Part shown: in pieces, positions 6,534 through 25,572 of the stretch
Layout: every line of letters begins with the position of its first letter
How positions within the stretch are numbered: the stretch's first letter is position 1
Source of the DNA: a virus
Strand: one strand, 5' to 3'
DNA: 25,664 nucleotides
Virus record (IMG/VR): IMGVR_UViG_3300047554_000147
Coordinates: 1 to 25,664 of that record
Position numbers and translations under genes: made by a program
Notes under the pieces: generated by a model
Told to the model about the DNA's origin: nothing
Databases searched by the model: none
Seen by the model: the letters and a program-made list of their open reading frames with translations, nothing else

Positions 6534-7631
6534 TTATTCTGATCGGAATGGGGTCCAACGATCCCTAGGAACTAGTTTAGATCCGCCAGCTACATAACCT
6601 TCACCGCCAGGCTTGCCGCCTGTGTGTGCTGTGATATCGCCCTTGGCAGCATCTAGTTCTCGTATAACTTCGTCTTTAGCAGCCATGATTTCTTTAACCA
6701 GGGCGAATAACTTATCTAGTATACCCGGATTGTTATCACTGTGTGCTTTGATCTTAGCAGCCTTGGCCGGAGTCTTTTGTAGGAAGTTAAAAAACGCTTC
6801 GCTATTGATATTATCTAATTGTTTGGCCTTGCTCTGTGTATTAACAAATGTATAGATTTCGCTCTGTAGATAGCCCATACCTGCCACAGGTGCTAGGAAC
6901 TTATCGATAGCTGGCTGATCTTTAGCCATAGATTCTATCTTTCCTAGATTGTCTGCGCTGACTTCTGGTCTATGGCTTACATAAGTTAAACCAAACACAG
7001 CAAGTTCTGGATTGGCATTCAGAGCTTTTACATCTTCGATATCCTCACCAGACTTATCACCGAAGTAATCTAAATGTTTATGTGCGGCAACCGCTATCTT
7101 AGCCTTACCTAAACGAACACCCACTGGACTGGTTGCCTTGACTTCGTAGGTTGTTTGATTAGGGGTGAACATGATCTTACCATCGCCGCTGTCATAGGGC
7201 TTGCCTGGATGGAATAGGATATCTCCATAGATATATCCACGGAAGTCTTTGGGCGTGCCTTTTTCGAAGATTGGCCACAGGCTGGCCATATCGTTGGCAA
7301 ACTTTTCACGCCAGTCTTCTCCTTTGCCACGACTCATGATAAAGGATTTTAATTCTTCTGGGCTAGATGATTTACCTTCTTCACGACCCCAGTTATTCTT
7401 TCCTACCATACGGAACGTGCCGTCGTCTTCACGACCCCAATACACAGTAGGGTTGCCGTCCCACTTGATAGATATCTTACTTTCTGGTTTGGCTAGGTCT
7501 TTAAGTATCTGTATAGCACGTTGAGCACCGTTAGGTTCTGTGAACACAAGATCTTCAAGGTGATTGAATTCTCTGCCTACTTTCTTAGGAGCAGGAGCTT
7601 CAGCTTCTGTTAGTATTTCCCAAAATCTCAT
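6534..7631 (-). CDS. KxDG nucleotidyltransferase/ligase-like protein with capsid-targeting-like leader
   Basis: 365 aa. ISIKWDGNPTVYWG (about 53-66) contains KWDG with Lys56, the motif I lysine signature of ATP-dependent DNA/RNA ligases and capping enzymes; FRGYIYGDILF (130-140) could be motif III, and YEVKA (162-166) and GKAKIAVAA (175-183) may stand for later motifs, although the usual EGxV of motif IV is not seen. The N-terminus MRFWEILTEAEAPAP resembles T4 internal-protein targeting leaders, with a possible gp21-type cut after LTE. It overlaps by 4 nt with an upstream pol-beta-like nucleotidyltransferase. Activity is unproven; the family is found in T4-like marine phages as unknown. Confidence 0.75.
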   Translation of the reverse strand: MRFWEILTEAEAPAPKKVGREFNHLEDLVFTEPNGAQRAIQILKDLAKPESKISIKWDGNPTVYWGREDDGTFRMVGKNNWGREEGKSSSPEELKSFIMSRGKGEDWREKFANDMASLWPIFEKGTPKDFRGYIYGDILFHPGKPYDSGDGKIMFTPNQTTYEVKATSPVGVRLGKAKIAVAAHKHLDYFGDKSGEDIEDVKALNANPELAVFGLTYVSHRPEVSADNLGKIESMAKDQPAIDKFLAPVAGMGYLQSEIYTFVNTQSKAKQLDNINSEAFFNFLQKTPAKAAKIKAHSDNNPGILDKLFALVKEIMAAKDEVIRELDAAKGDITAHTGGKPGGEGYVAGGSKLVPRDRWTPFRSE

Positions 7632-8416
7632 GATACTATGTCTATGATCCTACGCATCCAGCTAGGACTGTTTGGTGTGTAATGTTCTAACGCTTCTTTC
7701 TTAGGAAGCTCGATGCCACTGCGCCCTAGAGTTTCTTGTGCGGCAGCGATGAGTTCTTCATAGTTAGGTAATTTTTTAATATAAGAAATGATACTTTCAA
7801 CTGAACGAATGTCTTTTACTGTGGCCGACTGACCTAGTAATTTTTTAGCAATAACATTCCAGTCATCACCTTGGGGAATCGGTTCGTTGGTTTCTGGATC
7901 AACTAGTCCGTGCTTGGGACTGTATTTCATTGCTCTGGCTCTGGCGATGCTGCTCAATAAAATGTGTCTATGCTCACCCCTGTAAGGACTATCTTGTATG
8001 CCACCTAACATCGATCCTTGTTGGAATTTAGGATTGGCGGAAAACATAAAATCTGTTTGAGCAAATCCGTTGCTAGGATCACCGTTAATTGGAGTTTTTA
8101 AATGAACGTTATCGCCCGATAGCTTTACGCTATCTTTACCAAATACTGATATTAGTTTTTGTGCGAACTCTTTTTTATCTAGTTCGTTAGCATCAACAGA
8201 TAGATCTAAGTCTCCGCTGTCTGCTTTACGACCTGTGGTGCCTAACCATTTAATAGGAACACCTGCTTCATCCTTATCCATAGTAAAATCAACCCCTGTT
8301 TCTTTTTCTAGAAATGCAATAGTGGTAGGGATTTCTTCGCGTTTGATTCTGCGTGTTAGGGGTTCTTTATCTGGGCCTTTAAAAACATTGCCGCCCTCAA
8401 ATAATTCAATCGTCAT
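7628..8416 (-). CDS. Pol-beta superfamily nucleotidyltransferase
   Basis: 262 aa. LGTTGRKADSGDLDLSVD (58-75) is the hG[ST]..(S)GDxD signature with Asp69 and Asp71, and QTDFMFS supplies the third acidic residue (Asp122), so all three metal ligands of a pol-beta-type nucleotidyltransferase are present. The C-terminal half is helical and includes a RARAMKYSPKHG segment that could bind nucleic acid. The stop overlaps the start of the ligase-like gene (ATGA), and its start overlaps the upstream 94-aa gene by 11 nt, so the three are translationally coupled. It may add nucleotides to an RNA or DNA end, or modify a protein; the substrate is unknown. Confidence 0.82.
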   Translation of the reverse strand: MTIELFEGGNVFKGPDKEPLTRRIKREEIPTTIAFLEKETGVDFTMDKDEAGVPIKWLGTTGRKADSGDLDLSVDANELDKKEFAQKLISVFGKDSVKLSGDNVHLKTPINGDPSNGFAQTDFMFSANPKFQQGSMLGGIQDSPYRGEHRHILLSSIARARAMKYSPKHGLVDPETNEPIPQGDDWNVIAKKLLGQSATVKDIRSVESIISYIKKLPNYEELIAAAQETLGRSGIELPKKEALEHYTPNSPSWMRRIIDIVS

Positions 8417-10005: not shown

Positions 10006-10707
10006 TTATCTAACTTTAGCTAATCTAAAGAACCTAAGTATCTTTATATACTGCCAACCAATATCAAACTCATACCAACGTTTGCTGAACTTGGCTGAAG
10101 CACCGTCGCCGTGGTGATTGTTGTGTAGCTCTTCCCCACCAATCCAGAATGCCCAAGGTAGCAGGTTACGGCTAGTATCCTTGACATCATAGTTTCGATA
10201 ACCCCACCAATGTGCCGCACCGTTGATAACACCTGCGGCCCATACAGGAATCCACAGCATTTGAACACCCCAAATCACAAGTCCCACAGGTCCAAAAAGA
10301 GCAAGATCTATGATCAACATTAAAAGAATCCCTAGGCGACTGTGCGGGGTGTATAAGTTTTCCTCGATCCAATCCTCAGGTGTGCCCATGCCTAGATCGC
10401 GGACTAGTATTTTGTTTTTGCTGGCCTGATGATACAAGAAGGCGCCGCCGAACAACACACGCCAAATACCGTGTATCTTCGGTGAGTGTGGATCTTGTTC
10501 TGTGTCCGCGGCCTGATGGTGCTTGCGATGTATAGCCACCCATTGCTTGGTAACCATACCTGTGGTTAGCCATAACCAAAATCTCATGAAGTGTGCTACC
10601 ACTGGATGGAACTGCACTGCTCTGTGTGCCTGTGATCTGTGTAAGTAAAGAGTCACACACGCTATAGTGATTTGCACCATCACCAAGGTGTAGATAAATT
10701 CTATCAT
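10006..10707 (-). CDS. Acyl-lipid/acyl-CoA desaturase (fatty acid desaturase family)
   Basis: 233 aa from ATG 10707, which overlaps the aldolase stop (TAATG); a longer frame to 10779 is rejected because it lies inside the aldolase. All three histidine boxes of the membrane di-iron desaturases are present: HRSQAH (23-28), HRKHH (60-64) and HNNHH (194-198), plus NGAAHWWGYR with His165. Hydrophobic stretches at about 1-20, 41-55, 124-145 and 148-162 suit the membrane core. The enzyme should put a double bond into acyl chains, changing membrane fluidity. It is shorter than typical bacterial delta-9 desaturases but looks complete. It is the last gene of the late isocitrate lyase operon. Confidence 0.92.
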   Translation of the reverse strand: MIEFIYTLVMVQITIACVTLYLHRSQAHRAVQFHPVVAHFMRFWLWLTTGMVTKQWVAIHRKHHQAADTEQDPHSPKIHGIWRVLFGGAFLYHQASKNKILVRDLGMGTPEDWIEENLYTPHSRLGILLMLIIDLALFGPVGLVIWGVQMLWIPVWAAGVINGAAHWWGYRNYDVKDTSRNLLPWAFWIGGEELHNNHHGDGASAKFSKRWYEFDIGWQYIKILRFFRLAKVR

Positions 10708-11360
10708 TAATAATTCCCTGAGCTTAGAACGATCTTGCAGATGTGTTCTAAACGTTCTATGTGTTCGAAACTGCGCCATGGCGTAGAATCGATGGCCACG
10801 ACCCCGTGACCTTTTATTCCTACTATATCATACTTAATCTCACCAGTTAGGGGATTTAAACCCAACTTTTCATGACACTGATCGCCCAGCTCCTGCGAGA
10901 TAGGAGGCACATCGCCTACATTAGGTGCTACTCTAGTGTATCGACTTAATTCAGGAAAGTCTTTGACTAACTCTGAAAGTTCAATACCGGCATGCATGGC
11001 CGCTACGATGTAGGTAGGATGTATGTGTGTGACCACACGAACTTCATCTGTGTGTATCTCACGCTGTAGGCCAAAGTGCAGAGGCATTTCGCCCGTGGGC
11101 CTCAAGCCAATCGAGATGTCACTGTAGGGCATTTCTTCCCAACCATAGAGCATTTCTGCTGTGCCTGCGCCACTGTTGATGGTCCTAAGGATCTTGATCT
11201 TCTTGAACTGATCGGGCTGTAGTGTCTGCTTGCGGACGCCTGAGGGTGTGACATAGAAATGATCTCTGTCGTGATGGCGAATAGAGATGTTGCCATCCCT
11301 GCTGGTTATCCAGTTGCGCTTATATGCTTCTACTAATATATCGCAGATTGTTTCTAACAT
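10707..11360 (-). CDS. Class II aldolase/adducin family protein
   Basis: 217 aa with class II aldolase landmarks in order: DGNISIR (22-28), TPSG (38-41), RPTGEMPLH (87-95) with Glu91 as the likely catalytic acid, THIHP (111-115) with zinc ligands His112 and His114, and GIKGHGVVA (181-189) with the third His185. Family members cleave or epimerise sugar phosphates (fuculose-, ribulose-phosphate) or dehydrate methylthioribulose-phosphate; residues here do not choose between them. It begins 7 nt inside the end of the 79-aa gene and is coupled to the desaturase. Sugar or C2/C3 aldehyde metabolism is likely, the exact substrate unknown. Confidence 0.85.
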   Translation of the reverse strand: MLETICDILVEAYKRNWITSRDGNISIRHHDRDHFYVTPSGVRKQTLQPDQFKKIKILRTINSGAGTAEMLYGWEEMPYSDISIGLRPTGEMPLHFGLQREIHTDEVRVVTHIHPTYIVAAMHAGIELSELVKDFPELSRYTRVAPNVGDVPPISQELGDQCHEKLGLNPLTGEIKYDIVGIKGHGVVAIDSTPWRSFEHIERLEHICKIVLSSGNY

Positions 11361-11593
11361 TTATCTTCCTTTGCCAGTCTGGGGTCATTCCAGACATTGC
11401 GGTTATGTGAGACTGACTCTTTCAGCAGCCTAAACGTTTTCTCTTTTGGAGTTTCTGTGAAAGTAAAATACAGTGAGTTCAAAGGAGGTCTTCCAGTGTT
11501 CTCATCATAGAGTGTTCGATATTCATAATAAGAGGAAAGCCAGACTACCTGTCCGCTTGATACTCGTTGAGGTAGCCAGGCAAACTTACGCAT
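11354..11593 (-). CDS. Hypothetical 79-aa protein in isocitrate lyase operon
   Basis: 79 aa, soluble, aromatic-rich N-terminal half (VVWLSSYYEYRTLYDENTGR) and charged C-terminal helix (TPKEKTFRLLKESVSHNRN). Its ATG overlaps the isocitrate lyase stop (TGATG), and its end overlaps the aldolase start by 7 nt, so it is clearly part of the same coupled message. No family recognised. Confidence 0.72.
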   Translation of the reverse strand: MRKFAWLPQRVSSGQVVWLSSYYEYRTLYDENTGRPPLNSLYFTFTETPKEKTFRLLKESVSHNRNVWNDPRLAKEDKC

Positions 11594-12867
11594 CAGTGGA
11601 ACTGCTCCTCTTCTGTTGATCCTTTCAGTGCCTGTGTGGAGGCATCTTTCTCCACAGTAGTAGTGATAAGATCAAAGTAACCGGTGCCCACTTCACGCTG
11701 ATGTTTCACAGCTTCAAATCCAATAGCCGCATTGGCGAACTCCTGCTCCTGCATCTTGACGAACGCGGTCATACCTTCGCGAGCATAACCGTGTGCTAGT
11801 TCAAACATACCGTTGTTTAGATTGTGGAAACCTGCCAAGGTGATGAACTGGAACTTGTAGCCCATGGCACCTAGTTCACGTTGGAACCGGGAGATAGTAG
11901 CATCATCTAGATTCTTCTTCCAGTTAAAGCTAGGTGAGCAGTTGTAGGCTAGCATCTTATTCGGATAGTGTTTGTGGACTCGTTCTGCGAACTCTCTTGC
12001 GAACTCAAGATCTGGCTTCCCAGTTTCGCACCAGACCAAGTCGGCGTAAGGTGCATAAGCGATTGCTCTGCTGACGGCTTGATCGATTCCGTTTCTGGTC
12101 CTGTAGAATCCTTCAACAGTTCTTTCACCAGTAAGAAAAGGAATGTCATTATCATCGATGTCGCTAGTAATAAGATTACCAGCTTCGGCATCAGTTCGTG
12201 CAATAACAAGAGTAGGCACGCCCATAACATCAGCAGCGAGACGAGCGGCAACAAGTTTATTGACTGCTTCTCTGGTTGGAACAAGGACTTTACCTCCCAT
12301 ATGTCCGCATTTTTTAGCAGACGCTAGTTGATCTTCGAAGTGGACTCCTGCGGCGCCAGCTTCGATCATGTCTTTCATCAGTTCATAGGCATTTAGAACT
12401 CCGCCAAACCCTGCTTCGGCATCTGCCACGATCGGTGCGTAGAAATCCTGTTCCTTGCCTTCGCTCCATGCGATCTGATCAGCGCGAGCGAACGTGTTGT
12501 TGATCCTTCTTACCACTGCTGGCACGGAATCTGCTGGGTATAGACTTTGATCTGGATACATATCGCCGGCTAGGTTAGCATCTGCAGCGACCTGCCATCC
12601 TGATAGGTATATTGCTTTGAGTCCTGCTTTGACCTGCTGTAGGGCCTGCATGCCTGTCAGGGCTCCCAGTGTGTTGACGTAATCTTCTTCTAGAAGAAGG
12701 CGCCATAGTTTTTTTGATTGTTCAACAGCAAACTGATTTGGGTAAGTCTTTGAGCCTTGTAAGCGAACGACTTCCTCTGCTGTGTATGGTCTATGTATTC
12801 CATTCCAACGAGGATTAAGGGTCCAATCCTGTTGTAGAGCCTGCTGTCTCTGTGTGCGTTTATCCAT
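11593..12867 (-). CDS. aceA: Isocitrate lyase
   Basis: 424 aa, near the length of E. coli AceA and apparently intact. Active-site elements: YLSGW (87-91), ADAEAGFGG with Asp149, the signature KKCGHMGG with catalytic Cys187 and His189, and NCSPSFNW (309-316). It ends in GSTEEEQFH, like cellular enzymes. The enzyme splits isocitrate into glyoxylate and succinate, the first step of the glyoxylate shunt; no malate synthase is in the window. About seven residues are missing relative to E. coli near 136-142, outside the active site. AGGAGG sits 9 nt before ATG. A CATAAATA late promoter lies 26 nt upstream, so a phage late regulator, not the host, seems to control it. Confidence 0.97.
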
Positions 12868-12892: not shown

Positions 12893-12900
12893 TATTTATG
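12893..12900 (-). promoter_or_regulatory. Late promoter (CATAAATA) for the aceA operon
   Basis: Minus-strand CATAAATA ends 26 nt before the aceA ATG; spacing matches the virion genes. A divergent consensus sigma70 promoter follows within 20 nt. Confidence 0.75.
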
Positions 12901-12951: not shown

Positions 12952-13533
12952 ATGAAAAAAATCATTTTAACCGATGCAGACGGTTGTCTTTTAGATTGGG
13001 AATTTGCTTTTGGTGTTTGGATGGAACAGCATGGTTTCCAAAAGACTGAAGACAGCCAATTCAAATATGATATTGGCAAACGCTATGGCATTGAAAAAGA
13101 TCAGGCCAAAAAGCTGATCAAACGGTTTAACGAATCCGCACACATGGGCTTCTTACCGCCCCTGCGTGATGCTATGTTCTATGTGAAACGGCTACACGAA
13201 GAACACGGTTATGTGTTCCACTGTATCACTTCTATGAGCGCAGATGAAAACGCACAGGAACTGCGTAAAATGAATCTGCGTAAACTGTTTGGCGAAACCG
13301 CTTTCACCAAGTTCATCATACTAGACACAGGCGCAGATAAGGACGATGTGTTGGATGCCTACAGGGACAAAGGCTACTATTGGATCGAAGACAAGATCAC
13401 TAATGCTGTAGCTGGACAAGAACGTGGGCTGAAAAGCCTGCTGGTAGAACACGGCCACAACATGGATTTTGAACATCCAGAGATCCCCAGGGTCAAGAAC
13501 TGGCGTGAAATCTACGAGCTGATCGTAGGCTAA
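12952..13533 (+). CDS. HAD-superfamily phosphatase
   Basis: 193 aa. [12 protein letters not shown] (5-16) is HAD motif I with Asp8 nucleophile and Asp10 acid/base; CITSMSAD near residue 91 fits motif II (Ser/Thr), and [14 protein letters not shown] (about 142-155) fits the acidic motif IV. A helical cap lies between motifs I and II. The closest known pattern is the 5'(3')-deoxyribonucleotidase-like HAD proteins of T4-like phages, so nucleotide turnover is likely but not certain. No Shine-Dalgarno exists; the perfect promoter places the start site on the ATG. The message continues into the riboswitch and TerC gene. Confidence 0.85.
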
Positions 13534-13542
13534 ACTAAATAT

Positions 13543-13632
13543 TTCGGGGAGTAACTAACCAACAGGAGTTGGTTCTATACGTCGTCAACACGGCTAGACA
13601 AGCCCGGTGTATAGACAAAGCAGTGAGACCAT
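13543..13632 (+). ncRNA. yybP-ykoY family manganese riboswitch
   Basis: The three conserved blocks occur in order with correct spacing: GGGGAGTA (13546-13553, loop L1), CGTCAACA (13583-13590, loop L3), and GTGAGACC (13623-13630). Between L1 and L3 is a perfect stem AACCAAC/GTTGGTT (13557-13563 with 13568-13574). ACAC (13588-13591) pairs with GTGT (13607-13610) and GGC with GCC just inside, giving the second arm with a bulge. P1 looks short. L1 and L3 form the Mn2+ pocket in this family. It ends 15 nt before the TerC ATG, next to its Shine-Dalgarno, so translational control is likely; no terminator is seen. Confidence 0.88.
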
Positions 13633-13647
13633 AACTTAAGGAAAGAT

Positions 13648-14337
13648 ATGGAACTGTTTACACTCCAAGCCCTTTGGGCTTTTCTCGCTATCATCTTGAT
13701 AGACATCGTCTTAGCCGGAGATAACGCACTGGTTATCGGGATGGCTGCTAATCGACTACCGCCTGAACTTCGTAAGAAAGCGATATTCTGGGGCACCTTT
13801 GGTGCTATCGCTATACGCTTTGTCTCTGTGGCGGCCTTGACTTACCTACTAATGATTCCAGGACTGAGAGCCATTGGTGCTGCCGCACTGATATGGATCG
13901 GTTGGAAGTTGGTATTTGATTCGGGTGAACACGAAGTCAAAGCTTCGGACACATTCTGGGGTGCTATCTGGACTATCGTAGTCGCTGATGCTGTGATGGG
14001 CATAGACAATGCGCTGGGTATCGCTGCTGCGGCCAATGGTAGCTTGGTCCTAGTCATCGCTGGCTTACTGATTTCAGTGCCGATCATCTTGTTCGGTGCT
14101 ACACTAGTTTCAAAGATACTAGCACGTTGGCCAGACACTGTGTTCTTAGGATCGTTCGTTCTGTTCGCAGTGGCCTTCCTCATGCTGATGAAAGAACCCA
14201 TGATGGCTGCATGGTGGGCGGGTTTAGAACCCGTGATCGCTAAAATCTTACCTTGGACCGCAGCATTGGTTATCACTGCCGTTCAATACAACCAAGCTCG
14301 ATTACATTTGCACAAGAAGTATCTGTTCAAGTCATAA
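13648..14337 (+). CDS. TerC-family integral membrane protein (probable Mn2+ transporter)
   Basis: 229 aa with about seven hydrophobic segments. The family's metal-site motifs are intact: IDIVLAGDNALVIG with Asp19, Asp25 and Asn26, and VADAVMGIDNALGIA with Asp114, Asp120 and Asn121. TerC/Alx/YkoY proteins are linked to Mn2+ export and to metal loading of secreted enzymes, and many are governed by yybP-ykoY riboswitches exactly as here. AAGGAAAG precedes the ATG. The gene ends just before a terminator hairpin. In a phage this could lower toxic Mn2+ or feed Mn2+ to extracytoplasmic enzymes during infection; which one is inference. Confidence 0.93.
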   Translation: MELFTLQALWAFLAIILIDIVLAGDNALVIGMAANRLPPELRKKAIFWGTFGAIAIRFVSVAALTYLLMIPGLRAIGAAALIWIGWKLVFDSGEHEVKASDTFWGAIWTIVVADAVMGIDNALGIAAAANGSLVLVIAGLLISVPIILFGATLVSKILARWPDTVFLGSFVLFAVAFLMLMKEPMMAAWWAGLEPVIAKILPWTAALVITAVQYNQARLHLHKKYLFKS

Positions 14338-14341
14338 AAAA

Positions 14342-14356
14342 GGGCCCCAGGGGCCC
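14342..14356 (-). terminator. Terminator for the minus-strand 16011-14398 transcript
   Basis: GGGCCCC-A-GGGGCCC, followed on the minus strand by TTTTTT (14341-14336). It stands between the converging TerC and glycosyltransferase genes; on the plus strand no T run follows. Confidence 0.82.
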
Positions 14357-14397
14357 GGCTGACTACTTGTCCTATTATACGCCATCAGCCAAGGCGA

Positions 14398-15105
14398 TCA
14401 ACCCCAATACTTGGATGAGTCTAGTCGGTCCCAGTATTCTCGATTGTTGCGATTCCAGAAGTTCTTGATCAGATACCAAGCCATACCAAAGTAACCCATC
14501 TTCTTGAACCGTCTACTGTCCTGTCCAAAGTGATGATCTAGTATCCGAAACTTCTTTGGGCTGTATTTCCTAGACAGGAAAAAGTCTTCGCTTGTGGCAA
14601 ACTGTTCAGGAAAGCCACCATACTCTTCGAATCGATCTCTGCGAGTGAGCATGAACGCTCCTACGGCAAATGGTGTGGTATATTTTAGAACATTGTTTAT
14701 GATGTTGAATATCGCAAAGCCTGCCTGTGCTAGGACATTACCGTCATAGCATCTAGCATTCAATCCTACGAGATCGAGATCGTTGTCTTCTAGCGCACGG
14801 ACAGCATCCTGTATCACAGTTGGCTTGAAGAAACGCACATCGCTGTCGATGAACAAGATATAAGGTGTAGAGGCTAATCTAGCACCGTTATTTTTTGCTT
14901 CGGACACAGGACCACCTTGTATGATTTCTACGTTGAGGTCGCCTTGGCTGTCTTTGATAACCTGTCTGGTATTGTCTGTGGAACAGTCTGCTATGATGAT
15001 CCTAGTGTTGCCAATGCCCTGTGCTCGCAGTGCATCTAACAAATGACTGATATAGAGTTCTTCGTTCTTACAGGGAACTACTATGGTTATTTTTTCTTCG
15101 AGCAT
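14398..15105 (-). CDS. Family 2 glycosyltransferase
   Basis: 235 aa with GT-A features: ITIVVPCKNEELYISHLLDA (6-25), IADCSTDNTRQVI (38-50), SEAKNNGARLAST (68-80), the metal-binding FIDSDV with Asp87 and Asp89, and ATSEDFFLSRK (about 168-178) as the acceptor-side ED motif. The C-terminus (GYFGMAWYLIKNFWNRN) is aromatic and could sit on a membrane surface. It transfers a sugar from a nucleotide-sugar; the acceptor could be a lipid, LPS or a virion component. It is the last gene after the PlcP-like phosphoesterase, and the 57-aa gene overlaps its start by 19 nt. Confidence 0.9.
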   Translation of the reverse strand: MLEEKITIVVPCKNEELYISHLLDALRAQGIGNTRIIIADCSTDNTRQVIKDSQGDLNVEIIQGGPVSEAKNNGARLASTPYILFIDSDVRFFKPTVIQDAVRALEDNDLDLVGLNARCYDGNVLAQAGFAIFNIINNVLKYTTPFAVGAFMLTRRDRFEEYGGFPEQFATSEDFFLSRKYSPKKFRILDHHFGQDSRRFKKMGYFGMAWYLIKNFWNRNNREYWDRLDSSKYWG

Positions 15106-23393: not shown

Positions 23394-23411
23394 TTGTAAT
23401 CTCCGATTGAA

Positions 23412-23419
23412 TATTTATC
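23412..23419 (-). promoter_or_regulatory. Late promoter (GATAAATA) for the tail operon
   Basis: Minus-strand GATAAATA, 19 nt before ATG 23393, in the 34-nt gap shared with the divergent ALA synthase gene. Confidence 0.75.
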
Positions 23420-23427
23420 GGTTAAAT

Positions 23428-24648
23428 ATGTTTACTATGATCAACAAAGAACATTTCAAACACTTAATCAAAGACCTTAAAGATTCAGGAAAATATCGTG
23501 TATTCAACGATATCGTTCGCGAGCGTGGGCAGTTTCCTAAGGCTATATGGTATGGACCTTATAATATTAAAACTATAGTTAATTGGTGCTCAAACGATTA
23601 CCTAGGTATGGGGCAGCACAAAGTAGTTTTAGATGCTATGCACACTGCCTTAGATCAAACAGGTGCAGGGTCAGGCGGCACACGTAACATAGGTGGTCAC
23701 AGTCACTATCACGTGGCTCTAGAGCATGAGTTGGCTATGTTGCACAACAAAAGCCGTGCCCTACTGTTTAGTTCAGCGTATGTGGCCAATGAGTGGACAC
23801 TGATCAGCCTTTCTAAAATAGTGCCGAACATACAGTTTATTTCTGACAGTAAAAATCACAACAGTTTGATCGTGGGTATTCAACACAGCCGAGCACCTAA
23901 GCAGGTATTTGAACACAACAATCTCGAAGATCTAGAAAACAAACTAGCCAACAGTAAGCTAGGAGGATTTACTCCTTGCATCGTATTCGAATCAGTGTAT
24001 TCCATGGATGGAGATGTATCGCCTATTCGAGAGATCTGCGACCTTGCTGACAAGTATCAGGCCATTACCTACATCGATGAAGTGCATGCCGTGGGCTTAT
24101 ATGGCACACACGGTGGCGGCAAAGTAGAAGAGCTAGGATTAGAAAATAGGATCGACATCATCAACGGCACACTGGGCAAAGCCTTTGGTGTCCAAGGCGG
24201 ATATGTTGCGGCTGATGCTGATGTTATAGATGCTATCCGTTCTGTGGCTGCGGGCTTTATCTTTACTACATCGATGAGTCCGGTGGCCTGTGCTGGTGCT
24301 CTAGCTGCGGTTAAATGGTTAAAGGATCACGATGAAGTTCGTGTCAAGCATCAAGAACGTGCTCGTAAGCTCAAACATAGATTAAATGCTAATGGTATCA
24401 CAGTCATGGAATGTTCTACCACTCACATAGTTCCTGTGCTTGTTGGTGATGCAGTAAAGTGTAAAGCGATTTCGGATATGTTGTTGAACGAATACAACAT
24501 CTATGTTCAGCCAATCAATTATCCTACAGTTGATGTGGGAACGGAGCGGTTACGTTTCGCACCTACTCCGTTTCACGACGATGGAATGATCGAAGATCTT
24601 ATTTCTGCTCTGACTGCTTCGTTTGCGTATCACCAGGTGCGAGCCTAA
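23428..24648 (+). CDS. hemA: 5-Aminolevulinate synthase (C4/Shemin pathway)
   Basis: 406 aa from ATG 23428; ATG 23437 is equally possible and a TTG at 23407 is less likely. The alpha-oxoamine synthase fold is complete: GRYRVF-like GKYRVFNDI (21-29), [13 protein letters not shown] (52-64), [13 protein letters not shown] (78-90), YIDEVHAVG (215-223), and GTLGKAFG (247-254) with the PLP lysine Lys251. GSGGTRNI and overall length favour ALA synthase over KBL or BioF. It joins glycine and succinyl-CoA to 5-aminolevulinate, the first heme precursor, a route confined mainly to alphaproteobacteria and mitochondria. It has no clear promoter or Shine-Dalgarno. Its 3' end overlaps the cupin gene by 50 nt. 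Confidence 0.93.
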
Positions 24649-24985
24649 AACGATCTTCTACGATGTCTGTAGTCCCTACTTCAAAGATCACAGTGTTAGG
24701 TTCTAGTGCTTCAACTTGATGCGGACTCATTTCAGCGAAGTCCGCGGTCTTGCCTGCTTCAAGCACTGCCTGTTTTAGTTCTCCAGTGCCTACATCAGTC
24801 CAGGTTATCTTTATCTTTCCTTCGTTGACAAACCAGCTCTTGCGTTTTTCTCTGTGAAACACTAGGCTAGTCTTAGCACCTACTCGTTCAAATACCAGTA
24901 TTTTCCCACAGTATTTGTCATTGTTGGCCCAGACTAATTCAAAGCCCCAGCCCTTGTCTATTTTTCCAGTTGGTTGTTGGTTCAT
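24599..24985 (-). CDS. Cupin-fold protein (sugar-phosphate isomerase-like)
   Basis: 128 aa. [20 protein letters not shown] then [20 protein letters not shown] and PHQVEAL follow the single-domain cupin related to the C-terminal half of mannose-6-phosphate isomerase / GDP-mannose pyrophosphorylase, common in T4-like marine phages. His residues in VFHREK and SPHQVE are candidate metal ligands. The role may be mannose or sedoheptulose phosphate handling, or simple sugar binding. It is coupled to clpP by an ATGA overlap. Its C-terminal tail ([11 protein letters not shown]) overlaps the end of the ALA synthase gene on the other strand. Confidence 0.8.
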
Positions 24986-25572
24986 GGTCGTTTCTCAATA
25001 ATTTTATCAATAAGTCCGTATTCTAATGCTTCTTCTGCACTCATGAATTTATCTCTATCCATGTCGCGCTCAAATTCTTCGTAGGTCTTGCCTTTGGTAT
25101 TATGCTTGACATACAGTTCTGTGAGACGCTGCTTGATGTGCATGATTTCTTTGTAACTGATCTCAATATCAGATGCCATACCTCTCGCACCACCACTGGG
25201 CTGATGGATCATATGTCTTGCGTTGGGCAACATAAAGCGTTTGCCCTTTGCTCCGGCATTGGCTAGGAATGATCCCATAGAACAGGCCTGCCCCATGACA
25301 TAGGTAGCTACGTCACACTTGATGAACTGCATAGTATCGTAAATGCTTAATCCTGCTGTGACCACACCCCCAGGACTGTTAATGAATAAGTTTATATCTT
25401 TGCCAGGATCTTCCGATTCCAAGAACAACATCTGTGCCACGATCAAATTAGCCATGTGGTCTTCTACTGGACCGTTCAGCATGATGATTCTTTCTTTGAG
25501 CAATCTACTATAGATATCAAAGGCTCGCTCTCCTTTGGATGTAGTTTCGATTACCATTGGGACTAGGGTCAT
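24982..25572 (-). CDS. clpP: ATP-dependent Clp protease proteolytic subunit
   Basis: 196 aa, close to the length of mature bacterial ClpP. The catalytic triad is complete: GQACSMGSF with Ser98, [11 protein letters not shown] with His123, and Asp172 in [20 protein letters not shown] and the oligomer-interface helix are conserved. No ATPase partner (ClpA/ClpX) is present, so the phage subunit presumably works with host ClpX/ClpA or replaces host ClpP in mixed rings. AAGGA lies 8 nt before the ATG, and a strong sigma70-type promoter lies upstream, so it is an early gene, co-transcribed with the cupin. Confidence 0.95.

Follow-up and report, generated by a model that had tools for sequence, protein, structure and literature searches.

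A predicted manganese riboswitch of the yybP-ykoY type, joined to an apparent late promoter, upstream of terC in T4-like phages

Does a phage carry an RNA that senses manganese, and if so, what would it switch? The question is raised by the 25,664 nucleotides of IMG/VR virus record IMGVR_UViG_3300047554_000147 (positions 1 to 25,664, hereafter the window), in which an earlier note, made from the sequence alone, had read a yybP-ykoY riboswitch directly before a TerC-family gene. Riboswitches are rare in phages, and manganese and TerC go unmentioned in the report that says so (PMC9004378). The glutamine riboswitch of methylophage Melnitz and its relatives and the psbA-linked riboswitch of a cyanophage are, like the element considered here, RNA sensors of T4-like aquatic phages, but they have other ligands and other genes (PMC9004378). 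Full-text searches of journal papers, for the most part those open without subscription, turned up no Mn2+ or other metal-ion riboswitch of a phage. The aptamer, its parts and the gene that follows it lie as follows, in window positions:

13546..13630, + strand: predicted yybP-ykoY-type (Mn2+) aptamer (covariation, phage covariance model, shuffles)
13546-13547/13629-13630, + strand: P1.1, a helix of two pairs
13548-13553 with 13625-13628, + strand: L1
13554-13555/13623-13624, + strand: P1.2 (covariation)
13557-13563/13568-13574, + strand: P2 (covariation)
13575-13584/13605-13614, + strand: P3.1 (covariation)
13585-13591, + strand: L3, with the A41 equivalent at 13587
13592-13596/13600-13604, + strand: P3.2 (covariation)
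13615-13622, + strand: linker of 8 nt in place of P4, hairpin absent
13648..14337, + strand: terC, 229 amino acids, TerC family, YjbE subfamily (PF03741, TIGR03717)
14342..14356, no strand assigned: GC-rich inverted repeat GGGCCCC/GGGGCCC just after terC, which bounds the unit (consensus scan)

The gene product is TerC: it matches Pfam PF03741 with 136.6 bits (E 9.6e-40) and NCBIfam TIGR03717, named 'R_switched_YjbE', with 192.6 bits (cut-off 134.8), and it corresponds to phrog_7180, in the category auxiliary metabolic gene. Seventeen nucleotides (17 nt) separate the aptamer from the terC start. The repeat behind the gene may be terminator-like on the minus strand, and such matches can be chance.

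Three conserved blocks of the aptamer are exact in the window, GGGGAGTA at 13546-13553, CGTCAACA at 13583-13590 and GTGAGACC at 13623-13630. All three together match at a single place in the window, and none of 100 dinucleotide shuffles contains them jointly. Structures of the yybP-ykoY riboswitch (RF00080) are available from L. lactis and X. oryzae. We take position 13587 to be the equivalent of A41 of the solved structure, relying on the L. lactis sequence and on the numbering in the literature, and this placement agrees with the L. lactis-like leader found in contig L226. The solved structures form a four-way junction, in which A41 and A48 have a role in the Mn2+ contact (PMC6754395). With that family the phage element shares L1 (GGGGAGUA), the L3 sequence UCGUCA with its metal-contacting adenosine, the succession of P1.2, P2, P3.1, an unpaired 7-nt 5' segment, P3.2 and (G/A)AGACC, and a position before a Mn-homeostasis gene; it differs in that the window's subtype lacks P4 and thus forms a three-way junction, in having a P1.1 cut to about two pairs, and in scoring below the family cut-off. 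The likeness extends to the E. coli alx leader, whose L1/P1.2 flanks GGGGAGTAAC ... GTGAGACC are identical, which has UCGUCA in L3 and which also precedes a TerC-family gene, one induced by Mn2+ (PMC12096827), but which has a long P4 and is longer overall.

Across 42 distinct leaders, collected through TerC protein matches and not through the RNA pattern, L1 (GGGGAGTA) is invariant (42/42), as are the A41-equivalent adenosine and (G/A)AGAC(C/T); two CGTCG cases in the L3 count represent an additional CGTC further upstream. In 41 phage sequences of the window's type, type A, 96.7% of the cells of the fold are paired, 17 of the 26 pairs show changes on both sides, and double-change cells number 118, where shuffles give 31.9 +/- 5.7 and slid controls 6-25. 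Extending the set to 60 sequences of all phage types gives 259 such cells against 65.6 in shuffles, a figure that leans toward the model because its alignment was fitted to it. Both sets support P1.2, whose two pairs alternate among AC:GU, GU:AC and GC:GC, and P2, P3.1 and P3.2. On P1.1 covariation is uninformative, since its GG:CC pairs are near-invariant with one G-U exception; this helix amounts to two G-C pairs and at most one A-U. Chance similarity to yybP-ykoY is ruled out by the covariation in the two sets together with the shuffle test, and the phage element is almost certainly homologous to the family, as judged from sequence comparison. The 8-nt linker without a hairpin between P3.1 and P1.2 means that P4 is missing in type A, and we call this P4-less form a variant of the yybP-ykoY riboswitch. 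A P4 of 4-5 bp is retained by most leaders of phage types B and B2 (for example GAGA:UCUC in L002 and GGAA:UUCC in L052). The phage element very probably senses Mn2+, although with two pairs in P1.1 and no P4 the affinity of the window's subtype could be low.

The check suggested in the earlier note, a search with the Rfam model, gave no match on the window element at the gathering score and 8.6 bits locally. Read literally, this is one of the outcomes that the note named as refuting its claim, but the weakness is the model's. RF00080 (Rfam release 15; 177 positions, gathering cut-off 45 bits) likewise gives no gathering match in 20 bacterial loci with a TerC gene, an obvious leader being present in 13 of them (L130-L136, L144, L138, L140, L151, L154 and L157). 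Under relaxed limits it scores the Polynucleobacter leaders at 26-30 bits, L151 at 37 and phage L059 at 23, and it reports nothing for Pigmentiphaga L138 or Alkalihalobacillus L157 even at E up to 10. Because it fails on canonical bacterial leaders, its silence says little about the phage element, and we dropped it as a decisive test of membership; reliance on it leaves Mn2+ riboswitches in phages and bacteria under-reported. A covariance model built from the 41 phage sequences alone, R1, recovers all 8 Polynucleobacter terC leaders tested (46-52 bits, E 1e-10 to 1e-12), several further bacterial leaders and E. coli mntP (21.3 bits, E 0.0047); at the E. coli alx locus its sole match is in the correct place at 12.2 bits (E 2.2), non-significant alone. 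A match to CRISPR-DR17 at 13661-13684 (19.9 bits against a cut-off of 42) was taken as chance.

A feature that sets the phage leaders apart lies immediately upstream:

13534..13541, + strand: candidate late promoter box of T4 type, ACTAAATA (consensus TATAAATA), its end 4 nt upstream of the aptamer

From the end of TAAATA to the GGGG of the aptamer the distance is 4-8 nt in 61 of 61 distinct viral-contig leaders, a set made up of 60 phage leaders and that of L226, a probable Lactococcus host fragment where the box is there by chance. Within the 200 nt upstream, all 61 leaders together hold one other TAAATA. The box is found in none of 25 bacterial leaders and is, of the traits examined, the sole one exclusive to phages. 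In the window as a whole it precedes 11 of the 31 open reading frames, against an expectation of about 0.022 per frame. Genes for gp55, the T4 late sigma factor family, occur in 5 of 20 related records (357, 245, 215, 199 and 115 kb); the 191-kb record L030 yielded neither gp55 nor gp23, and the 25.7-kb window is too short to show gp55. A consensus scan of the + strand from 13400 to 14500 found no match to a sigma-70 promoter that could be part of the unit. In T4 late promoters transcription starts about 6 nt after the box. By analogy, the transcript would begin with the aptamer's first G or a nucleotide adjoining it, which would leave P1.1 with about two pairs.

Between the aptamer and the gene lies a candidate expression platform:

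13629..13651, + strand: hairpin CCATAACTTAAGGAAAGATATGG (predicted fold energy, shuffles, arm swaps)
13638-13644, + strand: Shine-Dalgarno sequence AAGGAAA, enclosed by the hairpin

The hairpin pairs the last two bases of the aptamer (CC) with the GG of the ATGG start-codon region, and its predicted energy in the window, -4.4 kcal/mol, falls to 0.0 when the CC is unavailable. Over 50 phage leaders the mean hairpin energy is -4.66, against -1.72 in shuffles, and native arms pair better than swapped ones, in that none of 200 swaps is as low, an outcome that is the same (0/200) with the constant CC and ATGG left out. The CC is paired in 45 of the 50 leaders, L069 pairing it elsewhere, and is unpaired in the other five, all of subtype B2; the platform is therefore not universal. 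For the whole leader, the aptamer-constrained fold has a predicted energy of -29.8 kcal/mol against -43.7, so that secondary structure alone does not favour the aptamer state, but the energy model excludes tertiary contacts and Mn2+, and most of the gap comes from the way in which P1.1 was forced. The minimum-energy fold also pairs GGAG of L1 with CTCC of codons 6-7, a pairing that we rejected since it is not preserved in relatives with CTT or ATT there. No intrinsic terminator that could belong to the unit was found on the + strand from 13400 to 14500, including the interval between aptamer and gene. The element had been placed at 13543-13647, and it does lie there; the functional unit is longer and runs from the promoter box at 13534 to the start-codon region at 13651.

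In studied relatives Mn2+ docks L1 on L3 and stabilises a weak P1.1 (PMC6754395, PMC11087558), and Mn2+ induces both alx and ykoY (PMC12096827). Fold, L1 and L3, linkage to terC, promoter box and hairpin are present in the sequences themselves, and from them we infer Mn2+ binding, the transcript start, an ON polarity and the task of TerC. A gp55-dependent late promoter would start the RNA within a few nucleotides of the aptamer's first G, making the aptamer the extreme 5' end of a late mRNA. At low Mn2+ the CC would pair with the GG of the start-codon region in a hairpin that hides the Shine-Dalgarno sequence and the AUG. At high Mn2+ the ion would join L1 and L3 and stabilise P1.1. Since this helix and the start-codon hairpin both need the CC, the hairpin would then lose its two strongest pairs, and Mn2+ should make the ribosome site accessible so that translation could start. 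TerC proteins are tied to Mn2+ export and to the metalation of exported proteins (PMC12096827), and late in infection the phage TerC may move Mn2+ out of the cytoplasm or load exported proteins. Taken as a whole, a phage-adapted yybP-ykoY Mn2+ riboswitch that switches terC translation ON is the explanation that we consider probable, and its translational ON output, taken by itself, is a prediction that we hold likely to about the same degree.

The strongest challenge to that output keeps the aptamer and its ligand and assigns them another effect, namely Rho-dependent termination, mRNA decay from the 5' end or an OFF switch. It draws on the five B2 leaders without the CC hairpin (L041, L059, L068, L224 and L228), in which a UCCUU or UUCUU might cover a ribosome site rich in purines, and on E. 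coli mntP, where Mn2+ control is reported to be combined with Rho (PMC11647493). Set against this are the enclosure of the Shine-Dalgarno sequence and AUG in a hairpin that competes with P1.1, the disappearance of that hairpin when the CC is blocked, the better fit of native than of swapped arms, and the ON response of alx and ykoY to Mn2+ (PMC12096827), so that another output is unlikely.

A protein search gave 80 TerC relatives in viral contigs, the nearest 90% identical, and in 60 of the 77 with enough upstream DNA the same aptamer leader precedes terC with its L1 and L3 blocks intact, against the loss in close relatives that the earlier note named as refuting its claim. Of the remaining 17, L032, L033 and L034 are left with a small part of the aptamer, which is absent altogether from 14 more distant relatives. 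Within about 75 nt before terC, the three retain the late box and the 3' end of the leader, together with terC itself, while P2 and most of P3 are deleted; they are a natural loss of the sensor. Along with the 14 aptamer-free distant genes, they indicate that terC can do without the aptamer. A DNA pattern scan found 47 viral contigs with the leader, and two broader scans added more. Pattern matches in L221 and L236 were discarded as chance, and L226 and L234 as probable bacterial stretches within viral contigs, L226 being a Lactococcus-like ATPase leader and probably host DNA. The leader also precedes an Alx-like TerC of ~313 aa (L101, L212, L214, L217, L219 and L230) and further TerC subtypes (L216, L227 and L231; L223, L224 and L228). 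Cultured phages gave distant TerC only, with none above 60% identity.

Under a second alternative, the leader is a passenger that the phage acquired from a bacterium along with terC and kept as a carrier of the ribosome site or a stabiliser of the 5' end, metal sensing having been lost. In its favour, Polynucleobacter terC, 64-66% identical, carries this aptamer at the corresponding position, and L032-L034 dropped the aptamer and retained the gene. Yet compensatory changes in P1.2, P2, P3.1 and P3.2 over 60 phage sequences, with L1 and L3 invariant, require continuing selection on the fold. The aptamer has persisted alongside a different promoter and a start-codon hairpin, and it also stands before the second, Alx-like type of TerC (in L101, L212, L217 and L219). 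We regard a passenger leader as improbable, more so than a different output. The remaining alternative, that a piece of bacterial DNA or a chimeric assembly has been taken for phage sequence, is suggested by isocitrate lyase, 5-aminolevulinate synthase and a bacterial-type ClpP in a record of only 25.7 kb, but it can be dismissed in the face of a virion structural protein (phrog_1645, E 3.4e-125) and a phage exonuclease (phrog_298) in the same window, dozens of viral contigs with the pair, and a late box absent from bacterial leaders.

A phage-adapted switch remains the preferred reading, and its phage context is secure because the aptamer-terC pair occurs in long phage contigs: the related records of 357, 245 and 215 kb, each of which carries the pair, encode a clear gp23 and also gp55. 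The pair is widespread in a T4-like phage lineage known from environmental DNA. What had been claimed of this locus, a yybP-ykoY-type riboswitch before a TerC gene in a phage, is borne out by exact blocks, covarying stems and the Pfam match, and the suspicion of a host fragment is rejected; the apparent late promoter, the loss of P4 and of most of P1.1, the start-codon hairpin and the spread across the lineage had been overlooked.

The nearest bacterial terC genes are those of Polynucleobacter. In a TerC tree the Polynucleobacter and phage proteins are joined apart from other bacteria (97/100), with Polynucleobacter among the phage branches, in a part of the tree where inner forks are weak and under midpoint rooting. 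Polynucleobacter terC leaders (L130-L136 and L144) share the aptamer core, and the phage B2 leaders L041, L059 and L068 nearly match them in the segment from P4 to P1.2. They differ in that TAAATA is absent and a TATAGAAT-like element lies upstream as a putative promoter motif, in having a small P4, and in lacking the hairpin between CC and start codon, which was not formed in seven Polynucleobacter leaders and L151. These leaders are unproven members of the yybP-ykoY family, and this nearest bacterial copy of terC and aptamer may have come from such phages.

P4-poor forms occur in Burkholderiaceae as well. A family-level scan around L133 gave R1 matches in 6 of 150 genomes. In four bacteria of the L133 family (L243, L245, L246 and L247) a likely yybP-ykoY aptamer with little or no P4 stands at about position 1505 on the match strand, before a gene that by inspection reads as TolC/CzcC-like, and three of the four have a CCATTTA..TAAATGG hairpin ending in ATGG. 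Little P4 and a CC hairpin are therefore not traits exclusive to phages.

New in the phage leaders, as far as their sequences go, are a late box abutting the aptamer, the cut P1.1, the loss of P4 in the window's subtype and the start-codon hairpin. Dozens of large T4-like phages share this conserved and covarying element, which is joined to an apparent phage late promoter. If the reading is true, the mRNA begins with the bases that the aptamer pairs first, which would make a very compact metal sensor. The 85-nt three-way-junction form would suit structural work as a minimal version. On the predicted mechanism, these viruses would track the manganese level of the infected cell and respond to it by way of TerC, and the metal homeostasis of the infected cell could be tested with a simple reporter. 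More tentatively, and with somewhat less than even confidence, T4-like phages may have evolved their own late, promoter-abutting Mn2+ switch, in which P4 was lost, the CC clasps the start codon and TerC is timed by the manganese of the cell.

Several other observations concern the contigs themselves. The window encodes a full-length isocitrate lyase (11593-12867, - strand; 767.8 bits, cut-off 562), preceded by a TAAATA box at 12900 (- strand), a 5-aminolevulinate synthase (23407-24648, + strand; 572 bits, cut-off 339), a DesA-type fatty acid desaturase (10006-10779, - strand; 411 bits, cut-off 400) and a ClpP (24982-25572, - strand), an unusual metabolic set for a phage contig. Three phages with B-type riboswitches carry a permuted two-piece tmRNA of the betaproteobacterial model with the tag ANDTRFALAA, at L002:4421-4840 (- strand), L005:10081-10479 (- strand) and L009:10081-10479 (- strand); L009 adds a tRNA with anticodon CUA at 12257-12332 (- strand), and L002 likewise encodes a CUA-anticodon tRNA, a set that is a possible host clue and possibly serves amber decoding. 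Contig L123, a different phage or prophage with a tape-measure-like reading on the other strand, holds at 7593-8053 (+ strand) a canonical yybP-ykoY leader that lacks a late box and is followed by a small gene, UPF0016/GDT1-like as read by inspection, apparently an independent insertion of a manganese switch.
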